Positions 522-14,143 of a stretch of DNA of 64,000 nucleotides are shown here, in pieces. This stretch comes from Alistipes sp. (GTDB taxonomy: Bacteria > Bacteroidota > Bacteroidia > Bacteroidales > Rikenellaceae), in NCBI GenBank assembly GCA_017474235.1, contig JAFVIB010000007.1, positions 1-64,000 on the forward strand. The letters run 5' to 3'. The translations under genes were made by a program, and so were the position numbers. The notes under the pieces are model-generated. The model saw only the letters and a program-made list of their open reading frames with translations, ran no database searches and had not been told where the DNA came from. The stretch's first letter is position 1, and each line of letters opens with the position of its first letter.

Positions 522-1919
522 CTATCTCCCAATAAATTTCACTTTACGGATATGGCTGCCCGACTGGTGCTCTACAATTCCCGTAACAACATCGGCTGCG
601 TCGTGCCAGCGATTGGAACTAAACAGGCGGCGATATGTCGTCAGATGGTTATACAGCTCACTCCATTGCAAATTCCACCCCTGCGGCATACGGATAGAGT
701 GCAGCACCGTGGCAGAGTTTGACAGAATACGCGCCTCCTTATTATCCGACTGATGAAACCACTCTATTCTTACCGTCGGGCACAACTGCTGAAGCACGCG
801 CGCAAAACCACGACCTCCATTATTACTTTCGACCGTCGCAACACGGGTTTTAGAGTTGTTAATCATCTGACTGACAAGCTTTTCTGTAACCTCCATAGGC
901 TCACGAGAATAGACTGCATCGGTAATATAAATCACCCCGTCACTATCTACAGCATAGCACAGTGAGCAGAGATAGTCATCGCCCATATCTGCCGTATCGG
1001 TATAATTCCCATACCGCACAATCTCCTTCGGCAGCTGTTGGTAGGTCATAAAGCCATTGCCATACAACAACCCCTCCGGCGTGGATGGATTACCTTGATA
1101 GAGACACTCAAACTTCTGCGGGTCAAGGCGGCGCTTCGATGCAAGCAGCGATGCACTATGCTGCGACTCCCAAAGCGACTGTCCGACACTTCGCGGGTCT
1201 ATCTCCGTAGCCTTGCCCACCTTAAGAGCCTCAAAGTTCAGTGCCACCCAAGTATCTGCCGGCACATTATCGAGTTGTTGCCACTCCTCAAGGTCTATAA
1301 CCTTCTCAAGGCTACGGATAGTACCTATCAAATCGTGCTCGTGCCAGCGCGTAAAGACCATAATCTCCTGCGAGGCGTTGTGCATACGCGTTCTGACAAC
1401 AGATGTGTACCACTCACGACAATTTTCGCGCACAATGGGAGAGTTTGCCTCCATAGCATCCTTGTAGAGGTCATCCAGTATAAAACAATCTACACGATTA
1501 CCCGTCAAACTACCCTCACGACCAACCGATATAAGCGAGCCGTGATGTCCGATAATCTCAACCTCATCCGCCGTGCGGATATAAGAAGAGCCCTTATTAC
1601 CACGCTTGATTGTCGTATCAGGAAATATCTCACCGTACTCATCACTCTCAATTATACGCTGCACTCGGCGGTTAAACTTCGAGGCAAGCGATGCAGAGTA
1701 AGAGGCAATGGCAACCCTCAAATCGGGATTAAGCCCAAGCATATAGGCTGGCAACAGCGTACTCGCACCAACACTCTTGCCGTGCTGTGGCGGCATCGTA
1801 ATAATCAGTCGCTTAACACGCCCCTGCGCAAAAGAGTCCAATAATTTGTAGTAACTCTTATGAAACTGCTCTAACTCCAAAAACGGATATACCGTTGTCG
1901 CAAAATTTTCAAAATCCAT
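522..1919 (-). CDS. phage-type terminase large subunit (orphan)
   Basis: Large-terminase ATPase/nuclease of 465 aa; in phages this motor cuts and pumps DNA into proheads. The N-terminal ATPase has a Walker A PPQHGKS at residues 43-49, a Walker B CFILDD at 145-150 and a coupling-motif-like FTRWHEHDL at 189-197. The C-terminal RNase H-like nuclease shows acidic candidates D308/D311, E364 and D440/D443 (WHDAADVV). Length is normal and no frameshift is visible. It lies 2 nt behind a 99-aa gene and both read away from an S24 repressor. No portal, capsid, tail or lysis gene is in the window on this side up to position 1; the phage may continue to the left, or this is a remnant or satellite module. 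Family call is firm; biological role is open. Confidence 0.85.
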   Translation of the reverse strand: MDFENFATTVYPFLELEQFHKSYYKLLDSFAQGRVKRLIITMPPQHGKSVGASTLLPAYMLGLNPDLRVAIASYSASLASKFNRRVQRIIESDEYGEIFPDTTIKRGNKGSSYIRTADEVEIIGHHGSLISVGREGSLTGNRVDCFILDDLYKDAMEANSPIVRENCREWYTSVVRTRMHNASQEIMVFTRWHEHDLIGTIRSLEKVIDLEEWQQLDNVPADTWVALNFEALKVGKATEIDPRSVGQSLWESQHSASLLASKRRLDPQKFECLYQGNPSTPEGLLYGNGFMTYQQLPKEIVRYGNYTDTADMGDDYLCSLCYAVDSDGVIYITDAVYSREPMEVTEKLVSQMINNSKTRVATVESNNGGRGFARVLQQLCPTVRIEWFHQSDNKEARILSNSATVLHSIRMPQGWNLQWSELYNHLTTYRRLFSSNRWHDAADVVTGIVEHQSGSHIRKVKFIGR

Positions 1920-2288: not shown

Positions 2289-2354
2289 TAACCAAATTTC
2301 GAAAATTGTACTCTGATTATTCAAATATTGTATAATAATTTTTCATACTATTTT

Positions 2355-3029
2355 ATGGGACAGCGACTAAAACTTATACGCAAAACATTAGGCTTTACGC
2401 AAGACCAATTGGCTCAGAAGCTTGGTGTAGGCAAGACTGCTCTTTCGATGATTGAGACAGGCAAGGCGCGATTGTCAAACAGAAACAAGAATATCCTTGT
2501 TCAAGAATTTAATGTTTCGCCGGAGTGGTTGGAGACAGGCGAGGGCGAAATGTTCAATGCCGATCCGGCTGTTGTAAAGTCATTCAGTCTAAAAACTGAC
2601 GGCTCACTACCGATGCAGAGTGTACCGCTCTACTCTATCGAGGGCACTGCGGGTCTTGTACCGCTCTTTGCAGACCGTATGAGTGTCGAGCCTGTGAACT
2701 TTATCCACATACCGAACCTCCCGAAGTGCGACGGTGCGATATATGTTGTCGGCGACTCGATGTATCCGCTACTCAAGAGTGGCGACATTGTACTCTACAA
2801 GCAGTTGCAGAGTATTGAGGATGTATTTTGGGGCGATATGTATCTACTCTCGATAGATATCAATGGCGAGGAGTATATTACTGTGAAGTACCTTCAGAAG
2901 TCGGACCGTGAGGGTTATGTACGCCTCGTGAGCCAAAATCAGCACCACGCCGACAAGGATATTCCGACAGATAAGATTCGCGCCATAGCACTTGTCAAGG
3001 CATCGATTCGTATGAACTCTATGCGATAG
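2355..3029 (+). CDS. XRE/S24 LexA-CI-like autocleavable repressor
   Basis: Helix-turn-helix repressor with a peptidase S24 domain, 224 aa from ATG 2355; an upstream in-frame TTG at 2328 is less likely because it would lie close to the promoter. Residues about 1-55 form an XRE DNA-binding domain; about 85-215 form the LexA-like autoprotease. The catalytic Ser is S135 (VGDSMYPLL) and the Lys is K178 (EYITVKYL). An Ala-Gly pair, A99-G100, sits 36 residues before the Ser, the spacing of the LexA/CI self-cleavage bond. This fits a RecA-triggered switch. It faces the terminase pair across the palindrome at 2270-2288, its likely operator. The next gene starts 3 nt downstream, so it may be co-transcribed. 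Confidence 0.85.
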   Translation: MGQRLKLIRKTLGFTQDQLAQKLGVGKTALSMIETGKARLSNRNKNILVQEFNVSPEWLETGEGEMFNADPAVVKSFSLKTDGSLPMQSVPLYSIEGTAGLVPLFADRMSVEPVNFIHIPNLPKCDGAIYVVGDSMYPLLKSGDIVLYKQLQSIEDVFWGDMYLLSIDINGEEYITVKYLQKSDREGYVRLVSQNQHHADKDIPTDKIRAIALVKASIRMNSMR

Positions 3030-5870: not shown

Positions 5871-6776
5871 ATGAAACCGAAAAAAGAGATTTCCCTGCGT
5901 CAATATACATCAAAGCTCGTTCAGACACTCATTTCAAGTCAGCGCGAGCGCACCGCCGAGACATACATTTCTGCCACAAACAGCCTCATCAAGTCTTTTG
6001 ACCGAGACGATATTACACTGAACGAAATCGACATTTCTGTCGTGTCCACCTACGAATATTCTCTACAGCGCAAAGGGTTAGCGAGAAACACTATATCATT
6101 CTATATCAGAAACTTACGCGCCATATACAATCGTGCCGTAGATGAAGAATTAATAGCCGACAAACGCCCATTTCGCAGAGCCTACACCGGCACAAGCAGC
6201 ACCCACAAGCGAGCCGTAGAGCCGAAGATTATCCGCAGCATAGCGCAGCTCGATTTAAGCCATAGCAGGTCTATACAGATGGATGCCGACATATTTTTAT
6301 TTAGTTTTTACACTCGCGGAATGGCTTTCGTGGATATTGCATCGCTCAAGTGGGAGCAAGTCAAGAACGGCTATCTGATATACCGCCGACGCAAAACAGG
6401 GCAGCAGATTGTAATACTTTGGGAGCCATGTATGCAGCAGATTGCAGAGAGATATTCAGACAACATATCAAACAGATACATTTTTTCGATAATAAAGGGC
6501 AAAAATCCGCGTCAGGAGTATCTGAGCGCGGCTCACAACATCAACAGGAACCTCCGAAAACTCGGCAAAAATCTCCAATTAAACGCACCATTAACCCTCT
6601 ATGTAGCGCGCCACAGCTGGGCAAGCATCGCCTACTCAGAGCAGATACCGATACAGACAATCAGCAGGGCTTTGGGACACAACAGCGAGTCCACCACCAG
6701 AATATACCTTGCGTCAATAGATAATTCGGCAGTGGACCTCGCCAACAAACAGGTTTTGCAGACAATCTCTTTTTAA
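5871..6776 (+). CDS. tyrosine recombinase, predicted invertase of the adjacent promoter
   Basis: Phage-integrase-family recombinase of 301 aa. An N-terminal SAM-like core-binding domain (about 8-95) precedes the catalytic domain (about 115-295). Catalytic residues are R149 (FYTRGMAF), K175 (RRRKTGQ), R247, H270 (ALGHNSESTT) and the nucleophile Y279. The box-II histidine is replaced by Tyr (YVARHSW, Y244), as I recall from many Bacteroidota integrases. There is no excisionase, relaxase or mobile-element cargo nearby. The last codons and stop (TCTTTTTAA) lie inside the left inverted repeat of a short segment carrying the susC promoter. This arrangement matches Bacteroidota master or local invertases of surface-protein promoters. 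Classic integrase function cannot be excluded. Confidence 0.85.
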   Translation: MKPKKEISLRQYTSKLVQTLISSQRERTAETYISATNSLIKSFDRDDITLNEIDISVVSTYEYSLQRKGLARNTISFYIRNLRAIYNRAVDEELIADKRPFRRAYTGTSSTHKRAVEPKIIRSIAQLDLSHSRSIQMDADIFLFSFYTRGMAFVDIASLKWEQVKNGYLIYRRRKTGQQIVILWEPCMQQIAERYSDNISNRYIFSIIKGKNPRQEYLSAAHNINRNLRKLGKNLQLNAPLTLYVARHSWASIAYSEQIPIQTISRALGHNSESTTRIYLASIDNSAVDLANKQVLQTISF

Positions 6777-6780
6777 GAGA
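6766..6780 (+). repeat. left inverted repeat (recombination site) of invertible promoter
   Basis: TCTCTTTTTAAGAGA: 6-bp palindromic arms TCTCTT/AAGAGA around a TTT centre. It is the exact reverse complement of 6917-6931. It overlaps the final codons and TAA stop of the recombinase gene; exchange inside the shared 15 bp would leave the coding sequence unchanged. Confidence 0.8.
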
Positions 6781-6873
6781 GAGACAGACATAGCATATCA
6801 ACCATTTACCGATGTTTCAGAATTAGAAATTTTAATCTCAACCCACCGATTTATTAAAAAAAACGCAAAAAAG

Positions 6874-6904
6874 TTTGCTAGAAAGAAAAAAATTACTACT
6901 TTTG
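6874..6904 (+). promoter_or_regulatory. susC operon promoter inside the invertible segment
   Basis: TTTG at 6874-6877, a 19-nt spacer and TACTTTTG at 6897-6904 give a textbook Bacteroidota -33/-7 promoter. Transcription would start near 6911, just before the right inverted repeat, so the repeat is at the 5' end of the transcript. Confidence 0.8.
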
Positions 6905-6916
6905 TATTCGTGTACA

Positions 6917-6931
6917 TCTCTTAAAAAGAGA
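6917..6931 (-). repeat. right inverted repeat (recombination site) of invertible promoter
   Basis: TCTCTTAAAAAGAGA, the exact reverse complement of 6766-6780. Arms can be extended imperfectly outward (GTACA and GGGAC flanks are near-complementary), as expected for a pair of recombinase binding arms around a short centre. Only the AAA/TTT centre gives the site polarity. Confidence 0.8.
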
Positions 6932-7102
6932 GGGACACACAAAAAAGCAAACAAAAAACTTTAAAAATTAACAAAAAAACTAAACAAAAACAACCTTAAA
7001 AACCGTTATTCAGATTTTCAGTGTATTACAGGCTGCGCACTCGTCCAAAGCCGTTTTTGCGGTGGCGGAGAGATTAAAAACTTAATTTACAAACTGAAAA
7101 TT
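6932..7102 (+). other. 5' leader of the phase-variable susC operon
   Basis: 171-nt untranslated leader. The first 80 nt are A-rich and unstructured; a GC-richer part near 7030-7075 (GGCTGCGC, CGGTGGCGG) could fold. No riboswitch or ORF recognised, and no strong Shine-Dalgarno sequence precedes the ATG at 7103, as is usual in Bacteroidota. Confidence 0.4.
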
Positions 7103-10100
7103 ATGAAACACGTCTTACTATCGATTTCCGGAAGATTCGGAAAGATTCTGACTGGCGTACTGTGTGCGGTGGCTCTCCTCGCATCTGGTAATGTTGTTGC
7201 TCAGAACCGAACAGTTTCCGGTAAAGTTATCGACGCTGCAACAAAGGCTCCAATGCCAGGTGCAGCAGTTGTTGTTAAGGGTACATCGACCGGTACTGCA
7301 ACAGACGCAAACGGTCAGTACACTATCAGTGCTTCAGCTAACGATGTTCTGGAGTGCTCATTCTTCGGTTATACAGCAGTTGAGGTAGCTGTTGGCAACC
7401 GTTCAGTTATCGATTTTACACTTACAGAGTCTAGCCAGGCTGTAGATGAGGTAGTCGTAGTAGGTTACGGTACCCTGAAGAAGGCTCAGCTGGTAGGTGC
7501 CGTTGAGAACCTCGGTGGTGAGGAGCTCGAGGGTCGTTCAACTGCCAATGTATCTCGTTCACTCCAGGGTATGGTTCCAGGTTTGAACGTTATGCCTCGT
7601 GACGGTAAGCCTACACAGGGTGGTGAGATCTACATCCGTGGTAACTCACAGTCTGTATCAATGCGTGAGTCTACTTCATCAGGTACAGGTAAGACCATCA
7701 AGCTCGGTCAGGGTGGTTCTGCTCTCGTACTCATCGACGGTGTTGAGGGTGACCTTAACTCTGTTAACCCTGAGGATGTTGAGAATATCGCAGTTCTGAA
7801 GGACGCTGCATCTGCTTCAGTGTATGGTGCTCGTGGTGCTTACGGTGTAATCCTCGTAACTACTAAGACCCCAGCTAAGGACAAGGTTACCATTAATTAT
7901 AATGGCTCAGTATCTCTCAACACTCGTACTATCAAGTGGGAGGATCACCTCGTTACTGACGGTCTTCTTTGGTTGGATAACTTCGCTAACTACTTCCAGA
8001 ACGACTCTCGTACCCCAACTTCTACAGGTAAGCTTGCTTCTGCGGTAAACAACCGTTCAAACACTTACTCTCAGGCATACCACGAGGAGTTCCGCAAGCG
8101 TTCAACTGATCCTACATACGAGAACTATGGTAAGATCTATGGTAAGTTCGGTAACACTAACAACTACGCTTACTATGCATCTACTAACTGGATCGATATG
8201 TGGTATCGCGACATGAATGCTAGCCATGTACACAACCTCTCTGTAGCAGGTTCTTCTGAGAAGGTTAAGTACTCTATCTCAGGTCGTTACTACAATCAGG
8301 ATGGTATCTACGAGTTCGATAACGAGAAGTATAACGCTTACAACCTCCGTGCTAAGGGTGAGGTTAAGGTATTTAAGTGGCTCACATTGGGTAACAATAC
8401 CTCTATCTTCCACCAGAAGTATCACCAGCCAATGGTAACCGGTGGTTCACAGCCTATCCTTCGTCAGTTCGAGCACCGTGGTCAGCCTATCTACCCTGCT
8501 TACAATGAGGACGGCACTCTGACATTCTACGGTGCTGCTGTAATGTACGGCGCATTCTCAGGTGACACCTCTTATCAGGAGAATGTTAAGATGTACGCAT
8601 CTTCAACTACCTCTTTGGTAGCAGAGCCTATTAAGGATGTTCTCAAGATTTCTGCTGACTTCACTTACAAGGCAGACCGCAACACTCAGGTTCGTGTATC
8701 TCCAATTCAGACTGGTTACTCTGCTCCAGGTGGTGCTGAGAACTACAACAACTCTTCTTACAAGTCTGACTGGCGTTACAACACTGATTACCTCGCTGCT
8801 AATGCAGTCCTCACTTGGACTCCAAAACTCGGCAAGGGTCACGATCTGAACGTAATGGCAGGTTGGAACATCGAGTCTAAGAAGTATCGTCGTCTCTATC
8901 TCCAGCGTCTTGGTCTGATGGACCCAACTCGTCCTTCTTTCGAGTTGATGGACTCTCAGGAGTACTCTGTTGAGGATGACGGTTACGATCACAACCTCGT
9001 TGGTGTATTTGCCCGTGTAAACTACGCATTGTTTGGTCGTTACATCTTCGAGTTCGCAGGTCGTTATGACGGTGAGTCTCGCTTCCCTAGTCAGCAGCGT
9101 TGGGGATTCTTCCCTTCAGGCTCAATTGGTTGGCGTCTTGCTGACGAGCCTTGGATGGATTGGTCTGACGAGTGGCTCGACAACTTCAAGATTCGTGCAA
9201 ATGTTGGTTCACTTGGTAACTCAATGATCGACGACTATGCATTTATGGATCTTTGGGCAGTAGATAAGACATCTGAGATTATCAATGGTTCTAAGGTTCC
9301 TTATGTAACAACTAACGGTATGGTATCTAGCTCACTTACTTGGGAGACTATTACTACTTACGATGTTGGTTTGGATATGGACTTCCTCGGTAACCGTCTC
9401 TCATTCTCTGGTGACATTTACTGGAAATATACAACCGATATGCTTACAACAGGTCCTGACTATCCTGCAGTTCTCGGTGAGTCTTCTCCAATGATTAACT
9501 ACGGTCGTCTTAAGACTAAGGGTTGGGAGGCTGCTTTGACATGGCGTGATAGCTTCAAGGCTGGCGGTAAGGACTTCAACTACTCAGTACGCTTCTCTAT
9601 CTGGGATAGCCGCATGTGGATTGACAAGTTCTCTAACGAGTCTGGTAATATCTACAACTTCTATGAGGGTATGGAGCTTGGTGATGTATGGGGCTTCAAG
9701 ACCGACGGTTACTTCTTGACAAACGAGGAGGCTAACAACTGGGCTACAGACTCATTCCACAAGAACGGTTCTAACTTCCGTGCATTTGCCGGTGACCTTA
9801 AGTTCATCGATATCAACGGTGACGGTAAGATCGACACAGGTAAGGGTACTTTGGAGGATCACGGTGACCTCGCTATCATCGGTAACGAGCGTGCACGCTA
9901 CCACTTCGGTGTAAACCTCTCTGGTAACTGGAACGGTATTGGTCTGAGCATCTTCCTCCAGGGCGTTATGAAGCGTGACTGGTATCCTGATCAGGAGTCT
10001 GGTTTCTTCTGGGGTATGTACAACCGTCCTTACGGCTACCTGCCTAAGGTTCATGTTGAGGATCGCGTAGAGGTAGATTACAGCACTGAGAACTGGGTAG

Positions 10101-10480
10101 TAACTAACCCTGGTGCATACTACACTCGTGCCGTTGCATACGCATCTAACCGTAATGTTGGTCCTCTCGCATACGAGAACGACTACTATCTCCAGGATGT
10201 ATCTTATCTTCGTGTAAAGAACATTACACTCGACTATACATTCCCTACAAAGCTTACTCAGAAGGCTCATATCCAGAAGCTGAAGGTATTCTTCACAGCT
10301 GAGAATCCATTCACTTTCTCTAAGCTCTATAAGCATACTAAGATGTTTGACCCAGAGGTTATCGGCGCAGGTGATACCGACTTTAACGCAGGCGGTGCTA
10401 CAGGTTTGTCTGGTGCAGGTCAGGGTTACTCATATCCATTGCTTAAGACCTTCACATTCGGTTTGAACATCACTTTCTAA
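7103..10480 (+). CDS. SusC/RagA-family TonB-dependent outer-membrane transporter (no STN)
   Basis: 1125 aa. Signal peptide to about residue 33 (VVAQ), a carboxypeptidase-regulatory-like beta domain at about 36-112, the SusC signature DEVVVVGYG near 115, a plug domain to about 235, and a 22-strand-type barrel ending in aromatic F (GLNITF). Imports a bound ligand together with its SusD lid. It lacks the N-terminal STN signalling domain that the second SusC of this window carries, consistent with control by promoter inversion rather than by an ECF/anti-sigma pair. First gene of susC-susD-metallophosphoesterase. The ligand is unknown; the phosphoesterase suggests a phosphorylated compound. Confidence 0.93.
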   Translation: MKHVLLSISGRFGKILTGVLCAVALLASGNVVAQNRTVSGKVIDAATKAPMPGAAVVVKGTSTGTATDANGQYTISASANDVLECSFFGYTAVEVAVGNRSVIDFTLTESSQAVDEVVVVGYGTLKKAQLVGAVENLGGEELEGRSTANVSRSLQGMVPGLNVMPRDGKPTQGGEIYIRGNSQSVSMRESTSSGTGKTIKLGQGGSALVLIDGVEGDLNSVNPEDVENIAVLKDAASASVYGARGAYGVILVTTKTPAKDKVTINYNGSVSLNTRTIKWEDHLVTDGLLWLDNFANYFQNDSRTPTSTGKLASAVNNRSNTYSQAYHEEFRKRSTDPTYENYGKIYGKFGNTNNYAYYASTNWIDMWYRDMNASHVHNLSVAGSSEKVKYSISGRYYNQDGIYEFDNEKYNAYNLRAKGEVKVFKWLTLGNNTSIFHQKYHQPMVTGGSQPILRQFEHRGQPIYPAYNEDGTLTFYGAAVMYGAFSGDTSYQENVKMYASSTTSLVAEPIKDVLKISADFTYKADRNTQVRVSPIQTGYSAPGGAENYNNSSYKSDWRYNTDYLAANAVLTWTPKLGKGHDLNVMAGWNIESKKYRRLYLQRLGLMDPTRPSFELMDSQEYSVEDDGYDHNLVGVFARVNYALFGRYIFEFAGRYDGESRFPSQQRWGFFPSGSIGWRLADEPWMDWSDEWLDNFKIRANVGSLGNSMIDDYAFMDLWAVDKTSEIINGSKVPYVTTNGMVSSSLTWETITTYDVGLDMDFLGNRLSFSGDIYWKYTTDMLTTGPDYPAVLGESSPMINYGRLKTKGWEAALTWRDSFKAGGKDFNYSVRFSIWDSRMWIDKFSNESGNIYNFYEGMELGDVWGFKTDGYFLTNEEANNWATDSFHKNGSNFRAFAGDLKFIDINGDGKIDTGKGTLEDHGDLAIIGNERARYHFGVNLSGNWNGIGLSIFLQGVMKRDWYPDQESGFFWGMYNRPYGYLPKVHVEDRVEVDYSTENWVVTNPGAYYTRAVAYASNRNVGPLAYENDYYLQDVSYLRVKNITLDYTFPTKLTQKAHIQKLKVFFTAENPFTFSKLYKHTKMFDPEVIGAGDTDFNAGGATGLSGAGQGYSYPLLKTFTFGLNITF

Positions 10481-10492
10481 TGAATAATAGGT

Positions 10493-12379
10493 ATGAAAAA
10501 GAGAATATTTAATTTATTAGCTGTAGCAGCGATTGCCCTTTCGGGTGTATCTTGCGAGAAGTTCCTCACAGTGGAGCCTATCGACAAGATGTCAGCTGAT
10601 ACATATTTCCAGAATGAGCTTGAGCTCGAGCTCTTCGCAAATGGTATGATTAATTCATACCTGCCAACCGCAGATGGTCTTGGTTACAGCGATAAGTACA
10701 GTGATCTTACTTGTACAAAGACCTCTACTGATTACAACCGTCCAGGTATTTGGAATGCACAGAAGCAGGGTAGCTGGGATGTAGGTAACTGGCGTAACAT
10801 CCGCCGTGCAAACATCTTCCTCGCAGGTATCGACCGCGCTGAGGGTAATGTTTCTGAGGCTATTCTTAACCACTACAGAGGTGTTGCTCGTCTGTGGCGT
10901 GCATACTTCTACTTCGCAAAGGTTCAGACATTCGGTGATGTGCCTTGGTTTGACCACGCACTCGATGTTGAGGACGAGGCTCTCTACGCAGGTCGTGACG
11001 ACCGTGAGTTCGTAATGAGCAAGGTTCTCGAGGATCTTAACTTTGCTTGCCAGTACCTCTCTACTGATAGCAAGTTCAGCGCAGTTGTTAATAAGTGGGT
11101 TGCTCTTGCATTCAAGTCTCGCGTATGTCTCTATGAGGGTACATTCCGTAAGTATCACGCTGTAAACCCATCTACTCAGGTAGCTTGGAACAACCAGTAT
11201 GGTACTGCTAACGACTTCCTCACTGAGTGCGTTAACGCATCTGAGGAGCTTATTAAGAATGGTGGTTTCTCTCTTGATACAGACTACTATCACCTCTTCC
11301 ACGACACTAACCTCGCAGGCAACTCTGAGGCTATTTGGTGGTCAGACTATGACAGTGGTGAGATGAACCGTATGCACGAGCTTACATGGGTTGTAAACTC
11401 TGGTACTTATGACCAGCAGTCATCTCCAACCAAGATTCTGATGAACCACTACCTTCAGGCTGACGGTACTCCTGTAACACACGGTGGTAAGGTTGGTTAC
11501 CTCAAGGAGTTTGAGAACCGTGACAAGCGTCTCTATGCAACTGTTCACCACGATGGTTATACTTATACAACCACTGCAGGTCAGAGCGTTCTTAAGCAGA
11601 TTAAGACTGGTAACGCATACAACGGTTATCACTACACTAAGTTCTCAATCGAGAACGAGGAGAACTTCTCTAAGGGTAAGAACGATAACGACTATCCAAT
11701 CCTCCGACTCGGTGAGGTTCTGTTGAACCTTGCAGAGGCTAAGGCTGAGCTCAACAATGGCTCACTCTCTGAGGCTGATTGGAATGCAACTATCGGTGCT
11801 CTCCGTGAGCGTGCAGGCGTTAAGAATATCTACCCAGGTTCTGCTGGCTACAAGTCAGACTGGACTAAGGCTTACTATGGTAACCTTTCTGATGTTCTTA
11901 CTGAGATTCGTCGTGAGCGTGCTGTAGAGCTCGTAGTTGAGGGTCTCCGTGTAAACGACCTCTATCGTTGGAAGCTCGGTCACCTCATCGTTGACCGTGG
12001 TACTAACAACCAGGGTTGGTTGGGTATCTATGTAAACAAGGCTCAGGCTGCAGTTGACAAGGCTGGTGCTGAGGCTCACGCTAAGGCTTACGCTGCAGCT
12101 GAGGATAAGGCAGCTTATGTAGCAGCTAACGGTGAGAAGGTATTCACAATCAACGGTTACTTCTATTCATTCAAGGGCGCTCCAGGTGCTGACCTTGGTT
12201 ACGATGTTACAGGTAAGACTTCTAACCAGAACCACTCTTTCTCTGAGGGTGATCACGGTTTCCTTACTTACAACTACAAACTTGAGTGGAACGATAGAAT
12301 GTATGTTCGCCCAATTCCACAGGCTGCTCTCAATGTAAACCCAGAGTTGAAGCAGAATGTTCTTTGGGAGGGTATCTAA
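10493..12379 (+). CDS. SusD/RagB-family surface lipoprotein
   Basis: 628 aa, 12 nt after susC. Lipobox at C21 (SGVSCEKFL) followed by the SusD N-terminal pattern (TVEPIDKMSADTYFQNELE), TPR-like helices (LWRAYFYFAKVQTFGDVPW) and the conserved C-terminal block (EIRRERAVELVVEGLRVNDLYRW). It forms the ligand-binding lid on the SusC transporter at the cell surface. An Ala-rich helical insert (about 518-560, QAAVDKAGAEAHAKAYAAAE) is unusual for the family. Same operon and switch as susC. Confidence 0.93.
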   Translation: MKKRIFNLLAVAAIALSGVSCEKFLTVEPIDKMSADTYFQNELELELFANGMINSYLPTADGLGYSDKYSDLTCTKTSTDYNRPGIWNAQKQGSWDVGNWRNIRRANIFLAGIDRAEGNVSEAILNHYRGVARLWRAYFYFAKVQTFGDVPWFDHALDVEDEALYAGRDDREFVMSKVLEDLNFACQYLSTDSKFSAVVNKWVALAFKSRVCLYEGTFRKYHAVNPSTQVAWNNQYGTANDFLTECVNASEELIKNGGFSLDTDYYHLFHDTNLAGNSEAIWWSDYDSGEMNRMHELTWVVNSGTYDQQSSPTKILMNHYLQADGTPVTHGGKVGYLKEFENRDKRLYATVHHDGYTYTTTAGQSVLKQIKTGNAYNGYHYTKFSIENEENFSKGKNDNDYPILRLGEVLLNLAEAKAELNNGSLSEADWNATIGALRERAGVKNIYPGSAGYKSDWTKAYYGNLSDVLTEIRRERAVELVVEGLRVNDLYRWKLGHLIVDRGTNNQGWLGIYVNKAQAAVDKAGAEAHAKAYAAAEDKAAYVAANGEKVFTINGYFYSFKGAPGADLGYDVTGKTSNQNHSFSEGDHGFLTYNYKLEWNDRMYVRPIPQAALNVNPELKQNVLWEGI

Positions 12380-12397
12380 TAACCAAAACCTACAACG

Positions 12398-14143
12398 ATG
12401 TTAGGTAAACTAAAATTCTTTCTTTTAACAGCAACCCTGCTCTGCGGGGTTGCTTGTTCTCCGAAGAGTCCTGAGAATGGTGAAAACGGCGGAGGTCAGC
12501 AGCCTGATCCTCCAACCGTTACCGAAATTAACGGTACAACCATTAAAGAGGGTAATAATATCTTTGGTCTGATTACAGATTCATCTACAGGCAAAGGTAT
12601 TGCCGGAGTACCGGTTACAGATGGTGCTACATTTGTTGTAACCGATGCAAATGGTGTATATCAGATGGCTGCTACCCGTTGGGCAAAGCGCGTTTGGTTT
12701 ACTATTCCTGCCGAGTATGAGGTGCCGGTTGATCCAAACAATGGTCGCCCACTCTTCTACGCTACGGAGGACATTGTTCGTTCTTCACAGAACCGCAATG
12801 ACTGGGTGCTTACTCCCCTTGCAAAGGCTGAGGATGAGTTTACCATCATAGCCATTGGCGACCCTCAGTGTGAGGTAGCTGCAGAGGCAGAGCGTTTCAG
12901 ATCTGAGACACTCGTAGATATTAGTACTACTGTTGGTCAGGCTCAGTCTTCTGAGAACCGTTACCACAATGCCTATGCACTCACCTTGGGTGATATCACT
13001 TTTGATAACACTCCACTGTGGCCAACTATGGCAAAGCTCTGCTCAAGCATTACTCTGTCAAACGGCAATAAGGTTCCGGTATTTAACTGTATTGGTAACC
13101 ACGACCATGATGCATCTCGTCAGGATGATGCTACTGCGACTGAACTCTATATAGAGAATGTTGGTCCAACCGACTACTCATTCAACCGCGGTAAGGTACA
13201 CTTTGTTGTTATGGACAACATCGTTTGTACAACATCTTCCGGCAGCACTTGGAGCTACAACGCAGGTTTCTCATCACAGCAGTACAAGTGGCTCAAGCAG
13301 GATTTGGACCTTGTACAGAATAAGGAGGAGAAGATGGTTATCCTCTCTTGCCATATTCCATTCCGCGGTGGTAGCACAAGTGGTGGCTCGCAGGTTAATA
13401 AGGACAAGTATTATGCAGAGGTACTTCAGCTTCTGACTCAGTTTAAGGAGGCTCACATCTTTATCGGTCATACACACTATCCACAGAACTATGTACACAA
13501 TTCGTACAAGGCAAAGGGTGGTGCTGGTATCTATGAGCATATCCACGGCGCAGCTTGTGGCGGCTGGTGGACCTCAAATATCGGTGTAGATGGCTCTCCT
13601 AACGGCTTTAGTATCTATGAGGTTAAGGGCGCGACACTGCATAACTGGGTTGCAAAGGGTACTAATATGAATATGAGTACTCAGATGCGTGTCTATAATG
13701 GCAACGACAGCTATAGCGGTACTAAGGGCTATGTTTATACTTGGCCCGAGGGAGGTACAGGCGGTTCAAAGAATATTGTTACAGCAGGTCGCAGCTACTT
13801 GAAGGACTGCGTAATTGCTACAATATGGAACGACGACCTCTATGGTAACTGGGCTGTTGATTTGGTTGTTGATGGCAAGAGCTATCCAATGAAGCGTATC
13901 ACAGACAATGTTGCAGATATGTGTGCATGTGCATTCTTCTTCAATGAGAAGGGTAAGAACACAACATCTTGGAACAAGGCTCTGATGCACTATTGGTATG
14001 TATCTGTTCCTTCACTCTTCCCTGGAAAGACCCCATCAGATCTTTCAGGTTGGGAGGTTCGTGCGACACATACAATCAAGACAAGTGGAGAGAAAAATGT
14101 CTATTCTGAGACATCATTCACTTCAAGCCACGCAGGTTTCTAA
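12398..14143 (+). CDS. three-domain calcineurin-like phosphoesterase lipoprotein
   Basis: 581 aa, third gene of the phase-variable operon. Lipobox C20 (CGVACSPKS), then a Gly/Pro-rich linker. A beta-sandwich MetallophosN-type domain spans about 48-140. The catalytic metallophosphoesterase domain follows with GDPQ (154-157; the usual GDxH has Gln here), GDITFD (198-203), GNHDHD (233-238), CHIPF (H319) and GHTH (357-360). A MetallophosC-like domain runs from about 400 to the end. Dinuclear-metal enzymes of this type cleave phosphomono- or diesters; substrate is not predictable. Expected on the outer membrane, processing the ligand of the adjacent SusCD. Confidence 0.88.
   Translation: MLGKLKFFLLTATLLCGVACSPKSPENGENGGGQQPDPPTVTEINGTTIKEGNNIFGLITDSSTGKGIAGVPVTDGATFVVTDANGVYQMAATRWAKRVWFTIPAEYEVPVDPNNGRPLFYATEDIVRSSQNRNDWVLTPLAKAEDEFTIIAIGDPQCEVAAEAERFRSETLVDISTTVGQAQSSENRYHNAYALTLGDITFDNTPLWPTMAKLCSSITLSNGNKVPVFNCIGNHDHDASRQDDATATELYIENVGPTDYSFNRGKVHFVVMDNIVCTTSSGSTWSYNAGFSSQQYKWLKQDLDLVQNKEEKMVILSCHIPFRGGSTSGGSQVNKDKYYAEVLQLLTQFKEAHIFIGHTHYPQNYVHNSYKAKGGAGIYEHIHGAACGGWWTSNIGVDGSPNGFSIYEVKGATLHNWVAKGTNMNMSTQMRVYNGNDSYSGTKGYVYTWPEGGTGGSKNIVTAGRSYLKDCVIATIWNDDLYGNWAVDLVVDGKSYPMKRITDNVADMCACAFFFNEKGKNTTSWNKALMHYWYVSVPSLFPGKTPSDLSGWEVRATHTIKTSGEKNVYSETSFTSSHAGF

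Follow-up and report, generated by a model that had tools for sequence, protein, structure and literature searches.

Is the SusCD-phosphoesterase operon in this stretch of DNA from a gut-dwelling Alistipes (the window, 64,000 nucleotides in all) turned on and off by inversion of its own promoter? Comparison with related genomes leads us to regard it as highly probable, on sequence grounds, that the locus is a local phase-variation switch in which an adjacent recombinase flips the promoter serving the operon. This kind of switch is already known from the Tsr-type inversions of Bacteroides fragilis; what sets the present case apart is how unusually well it is supported by comparison with related species. 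Weinacht reportedly described, in 2004, tyrosine recombinases of B. fragilis and inversions affecting outer surface proteins.

Taken together, PMC4747536, PMC3090145, PMC5903667, PMC8748976, PMC10939037 and PMC12632263 show that tyrosine recombinases invert promoters at B. fragilis surface loci, that Tsr0667 varies SusC/SusD, and that Bacteroidales have been surveyed with PhaseFinder; PMC8327913 cites the subject in passing. Among the titles and abstract openings listed on Alistipes together with promoter inversion, phase variation or SusC, none describes this locus, most subscription papers being outside reach.

Recombinase gene, repeat arms and putative promoter in the window

The features of the locus are collected in Table 1. 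A first-pass annotation had described exact 15-nt inverted repeats, each made of 6-nt palindromic half-arms around an AAA/TTT centre; both the positions and the design proved correct, with 136 nt between the arms. When the 560 nt at the recombinase 3′ end were resampled 5000 times with a first-order Markov model, an inverted repeat that reached 15 nt arose in 2 of the resamples. The arm motif TCTCTTN3AAGAGA, for which 0.01 matches are expected in the window, occurs in it twice. The annotation had also proposed a genome-wide search for further pairs. Carried out for exact and one-mismatch sites over the 1.97-Mb assembly (G000), it returned 2 exact sites, both at the switch, and 9 further one-mismatch sites among which there is no second close inverted pair; the window's contig (C14) has no third recombination site with at most one mismatch. 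Two of the 9 belong to a duplication on contig C8 (positions 377 and 8503), where the roughly 130 nt compared (L010, L011) are identical in both copies, about 8 kb apart on the one contig.

Table 1. Features of the probable switch locus, in window coordinates
Feature	Position	Strand	Remarks
Divergent gene, 604 aa	3658..5472	-	weak fn3 match only; far edge of syntenic block, outside the switch
Tyrosine recombinase, 301 aa, probable invertase	5871..6776	+	Pfam Phage_int_SAM_5 2.1e-15, Phage_integrase 6.6e-14
Left inverted repeat arm, TCTCTTTTTAAGAGA	6766..6780		exact 15-nt repeat
Segment proposed to invert, 136 nt	6781..6916		between the arms
Putative Bacteroidota-type promoter, TTTG-N19-TACTTTTG	6874..6904	+	consensus match; faces susC (ON)
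Right inverted repeat arm, TCTCTTAAAAAGAGA	6917..6931		exact reverse complement of left arm
Conserved leader RNA, predicted structured	7002..7114	+	predicted outer helix covers susC start codon
susC/ragA TonB-linked outer membrane protein	7103..10480	+	TIGR04056 2.4e-238
susD/ragB outer membrane lipoprotein	10493..12379	+	Pfam SusD_RagB 4.6e-43
Calcineurin-like phosphoesterase	12398..14143	+	MetallophosN and MetallophosC domains; last plus-strand gene before an opposite-strand gene

The gene directly before the repeats is indeed that of a tyrosine recombinase, with both Pfam domains recognized and its last codons and TAA stop (6774-6776) lying within the left arm. Its Phage_integrase match, which is above cut-off, supplies the adjacent tyrosine-recombinase catalytic domain expected of a Tsr-type switch; a serine recombinase of the Mpi or Hin type was not found, Phage_int_SAM_5 and Phage_integrase being the only Pfam families at E ≤ 0.001. 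By sequence the protein is related to XerC-like and XerA structures, its C-terminal part aligning with the XerC-like 4a8e. In a pattern-based scan for viral relatives, 5 stretches matched and none encoded a relative.

Eight close relatives likewise have the stop codon within the left arm, and flipping the segment in silico left the recombinase protein unchanged at all three loci treated in this way (window, G006 and G062). In genome G080 the recombinase follows a different frame, extending 10 residues into the segment as assembled, and the in silico flip brings a stop right after the arm; judged from these translations, the tail of the G080 recombinase would change with segment orientation. 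The G000 genome contains five Phage_integrase matches at E ≤ 0.001. Repeats of at least 12 nt near the other four integrases (2.2-3.6 kb each) amount to one 12-nt pair at one of them and none at three. Another tyrosine recombinase lies near a contig end (L090, G000 contig C33, 218-745); the stretch examined around that gene has no inverted repeat of at least 12 nt.

The consensus Bacteroidota promoter said to lie between the repeats and to be directed at susC is present on the plus strand, where TTTG (6874-6877) and TACTTTTG (6897-6904) are separated by a 19-nt spacer and the match ends 12 nt before the right arm. The consensus match and its spacing from the arm thus place within the segment a predicted promoter aimed at the target operon, as in Tsr-type systems, and its direction agrees with the earlier reading of this sequence as ON. 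We infer that the segment has promoter activity.

Orientation of the segment in related genomes

Searched with the recombinase, 84 of 180 genomes from the genus gave a match at E ≤ 1e-25. Ten loci that carry TCTCTTN3AAGAGA at the recombinase 3′ end were taken as orthologous: the window (G000), G003, G152, G086, G062, G063, G186, G108, G006 and G080, with G062 and G063 identical at the locus. Matches of similar rank without such a pair occur in G100, G067:C22 and G067:C13; the flank available at G067:C13 is just 175 nt long. Both arms are present with perfectly complementary 15-nt cores in nine of the ten, and this complementarity is held although the centre varies (TTT, ATT, AAT); in G086, the remaining locus, a separate contig carries the matching right arm. 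All six genomes compared over 11-13 kb each have homologues of the divergent gene, recombinase, susC, susD and phosphoesterase arranged as in the window, with identities of 84-89% for susC and 53-61% for the recombinase. The divergent gene gave a full-length, single-piece match in G080; in each of the remaining five only part of it matches, in one piece or two.

With a strict promoter pattern (TTTG-N17-21-TANNTTTG), the promoter faces susC and is contiguous with it at seven loci (G000, G003, G152, G062, G063, G186 and G006). The reversed segment that the first-pass annotation had suggested seeking in related genomes is seen in G080, where the promoter is on the opposite strand, toward the recombinase, and the same susC start lies downstream; among the ten orthologues this is the sole contiguously reversed locus. 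Its segment aligned better when flipped than as is in seven of eight orthologue comparisons, the comparison with the window being a tie. Measured against 200 shuffles, it strictly beat all of them in two of the eight comparisons when flipped and in none of the eight as is.

Two further assemblies are broken or folded back at the repeats. The first 35 nt of the G108 contig repeat the recombinase 3′ end in inverted form, extending 19 nt past the 15-nt core, so that both segment ends join recombinase flank in one assembly. Such a fold-back would be expected if the reads held both orientations; alternatively, it may be a chimaeric artefact. A close susC was not found in the G108 assembly, where the best match has 30% identity. 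In G086 the left arm is the end of one contig, and just inside it starts a second, which carries the segment in the ON direction together with susC. Contig ends within 300 nt are in weakly significant excess at the recombinase 3′ end (8/83, against 1/67 at the 5′ end; p = 0.036, and p = 0.06 at 200 nt). Both orientations of a Tsr-type segment are thus represented at the orthologous locus in relatives, contiguously reversed in G080 and as indicated by the assemblies of G108 and G086.

The module across the genus and the operon without it

From 150 recombinase matches we examined the loci of the 70 best scoring, of which 10 were dropped for a short 3′ flank and 60 kept. In 37 of the 60 the 3′ flank contains an exact inverted repeat that is 14 nt long or longer, compared with none of 60 in an equal upstream stretch and 4 of 3000 resampled flanks; the other 23 loci have no repeat pair. 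When G108 is added to the 37, 32 of the resulting 38 loci have a CT-N5-AG core in the arm. The -7 element TANNTTTG ends 8-20 nt inside one arm at 31 of these 38 loci, about 0.8 being expected from letter-shuffled segments, a comparison in which the 8-20 nt window was chosen after inspection of the closest loci and the 38 are not independent (G062 equals G063). The element faces away from the recombinase at 15 loci, eight of which belong to the ten close loci, and toward it at 16, never in both directions; 7 of the 38 have none at 8-20 nt from an arm. By the strict two-part pattern, 8 promoters face away, 7 face toward and 23 loci have none. Such equal spacing, at one end or the other but never at both, would be expected of a flipping module but not of a fixed promoter.

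Many recombinases of the genus (L029-L086) have a 3′ repeat pair and a promoter beside different downstream genes, other susC-like genes included; by eye, some of the other products are presumably NusG/UpxY-type regulators and small outer membrane proteins. At L037, L051, L071 and L082 the arm occurs in three or more copies near one recombinase, as if several nested inversions were possible.

Two genomes carry the operon without the switch. In G166 (L137) and G177 (L138) the same SusCD operon, with a tandem second phosphoesterase, stands beside a homologue of the divergent gene; the gap between them gave no match to a recombinase, even a decayed one, at E ≤ 10, and TCTCTTN3AAGAGA is absent from both loci. 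A promoter, TTTG-N18-TATCTTTG, faces susC in both genomes, and its matching place and direction support the segment promoter as the promoter of susC. Since the same operon exists with and without it, either one lineage acquired the switch or the other lost it, and related species thereby offer a natural comparison for the use of SusCD phase variation. G177 also has an A-rich exact 15-nt inverted repeat on the divergent-gene side (L138, 2500-2514 and 2777-2791), between whose arms lies a predicted promoter of the divergent gene, not that of susC, and which may be due to chance.

The proposal that the operon is phase-variable is thus supported by the conserved set of repeat, promoter and recombinase, by the reversal in G080 and by the symmetric placement of promoters across the genus. 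Each arm is also nearly palindromic and so operator-like, and the palindromes might be regulator operator sites or mRNA hairpins that happen to adjoin an unrelated recombinase gene, no inversion taking place; the single orientation of most orthologues would suit such an arrangement. We have rejected it and give it hardly any credence, because a relative shows the reversed orientation and the repeats go with the recombinase: the G080 promoter is turned round, G108 folds back and the G086 contig is broken, while repeat pairs accompany the recombinase family throughout the genus with other genes downstream. Nor does it square with promoters found at either end and never at both, or with an operon that lacks the recombinase and lacks TCTCTTN3AAGAGA too.

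With G080 the one contiguously reversed locus and seven contiguously ON, it is conceivable that the segment is locked ON in some species. For the present species this would mean a former switch held by an inactive recombinase or by counter-selection against inversion, which is in keeping with the ON orientation of this assembly and of 6 other contiguous orthologues; however, a full-length recombinase whose catalytic domain looks intact speaks against it, as does the exact complementarity of the arms, and we consider such a lock very improbable. Action of the recombinase elsewhere in the genome, as a master invertase or in a shufflon, would be compatible with the local switch and would add to it. 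Precedents are B. fragilis Tsr19, with a local and a distant site, and Tsr0667, with its SusC/SusD shufflons (both in the accessible part of PMC4747536). Against this stand the two exact sites of G000 and its 9 one-mismatch sites without a second close inverted pair; more than two sites at the locus, as in a SusC/SusD shufflon, were not found, the genome having two exact ones. On these site counts, exact and one-mismatch, we disfavour a shufflon or master invertase for this genome and hold wider action by the recombinase to be improbable.

Proposed working of the switch, known counterparts and the susC leader

If the locus is a local promoter switch, as we favour, the recombinase would bind both palindromic arms and exchange strands between them, and the 136-nt segment would thereby be inverted. 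In the ON state transcription from the promoter would cross the right arm and proceed to the leader, susC, susD and the phosphoesterase gene; in the OFF state the promoter would point at the recombinase 3′ end, and the operon would be deprived of it. The segment presumably inverts in this strain too, with this recombinase as the probable catalyst. The benefit would lie in switching a surface nutrient receptor that may be a target of phage or of immunity.

The nearest counterpart, according to the available text of PMC4747536 and PMC3090145, is B. fragilis Tsr19 (BF2766) with IVp-I, where an invertible promoter likewise lies directly downstream of the recombinase gene and exerts ON/OFF control over an adjacent surface operon. 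Tsr19 differs in acting at a distant promoter as well and in having an extracellular polysaccharide operon under its control (same sources); at the Alistipes locus there is a single local pair of sites, and the operon is of the SusCD-phosphoesterase kind. Tsr0667, as presented in the part of PMC4747536 available, is similar in being a tyrosine recombinase that varies SusC/SusD outer membrane proteins, but does so by shufflon-type multiple inversions involving three SusC/SusD clusters and nine other regions, in place of the single promoter segment and two sites seen here. Mpi and the capsule promoters of B. fragilis share with our locus the principle of invertible promoters at surface loci; in the accessible portions of PMC4747536 and PMC5903667, Mpi is a serine-type master invertase acting at 13 regions, unlike the tyrosine recombinase of Alistipes. 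The present locus extends B. fragilis-type promoter inversion to Alistipes, in which the module of recombinase, site and promoter recurs beside different genes.

The susC leader is conserved in the 8 loci compared, the window included, and each of the 8 folds better than the mean of its own shuffles (z -2.2 to -3.4). In the window, the AUG falls within the predicted outer helix. As 13 of the 16 pairs of this helix are invariant, covariation speaks neither for nor against it. Six pairs of the two inner helices show changes on both sides, in 11 cells altogether; among 500 shuffles none reached 11 cells or the covariation score and 2 reached six pairs, the structure having been derived from the same sequences that were used in this test. 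The number of further pair types was not unusual (194/500 shuffles). A covariance model of the leader matched 9 of the 180 genus genomes, once each and at the susC locus only; these nine are the model's own sequences and the identical G063, so that under the stricter filters nothing further was found. Between 5500 and 7400, Rfam gave one match at E ≤ 1, to the snoRNA snR67 (E = 0.31; 20.2 bits against a gathering score of 55). G166 and G177 have a similar complementary pair, CATTTTCAGA and TCTGAAAAT, about 40 nt upstream of the ATG, and cover of the start codon is therefore not universal.

One might go further and suppose that the switch is coupled to itself, with the leader RNA as a second control of susC, so that the receptor would need both the ON orientation and a permissive cell. 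Since the recombinase gene ends in its own crossover site, the OFF promoter would fire antisense into that gene and lower the recombinase level, and OFF would be held longer than ON. We regard this elaboration as unlikely.

Near the switch, the window also contains a phage terminase large subunit gene (522-1919, minus strand; TIGR01630 above cut-off) and, at 2328-3029 on the plus strand, a gene with helix-turn-helix matches that are all below cut-off; together these genes are possibly a prophage remnant.
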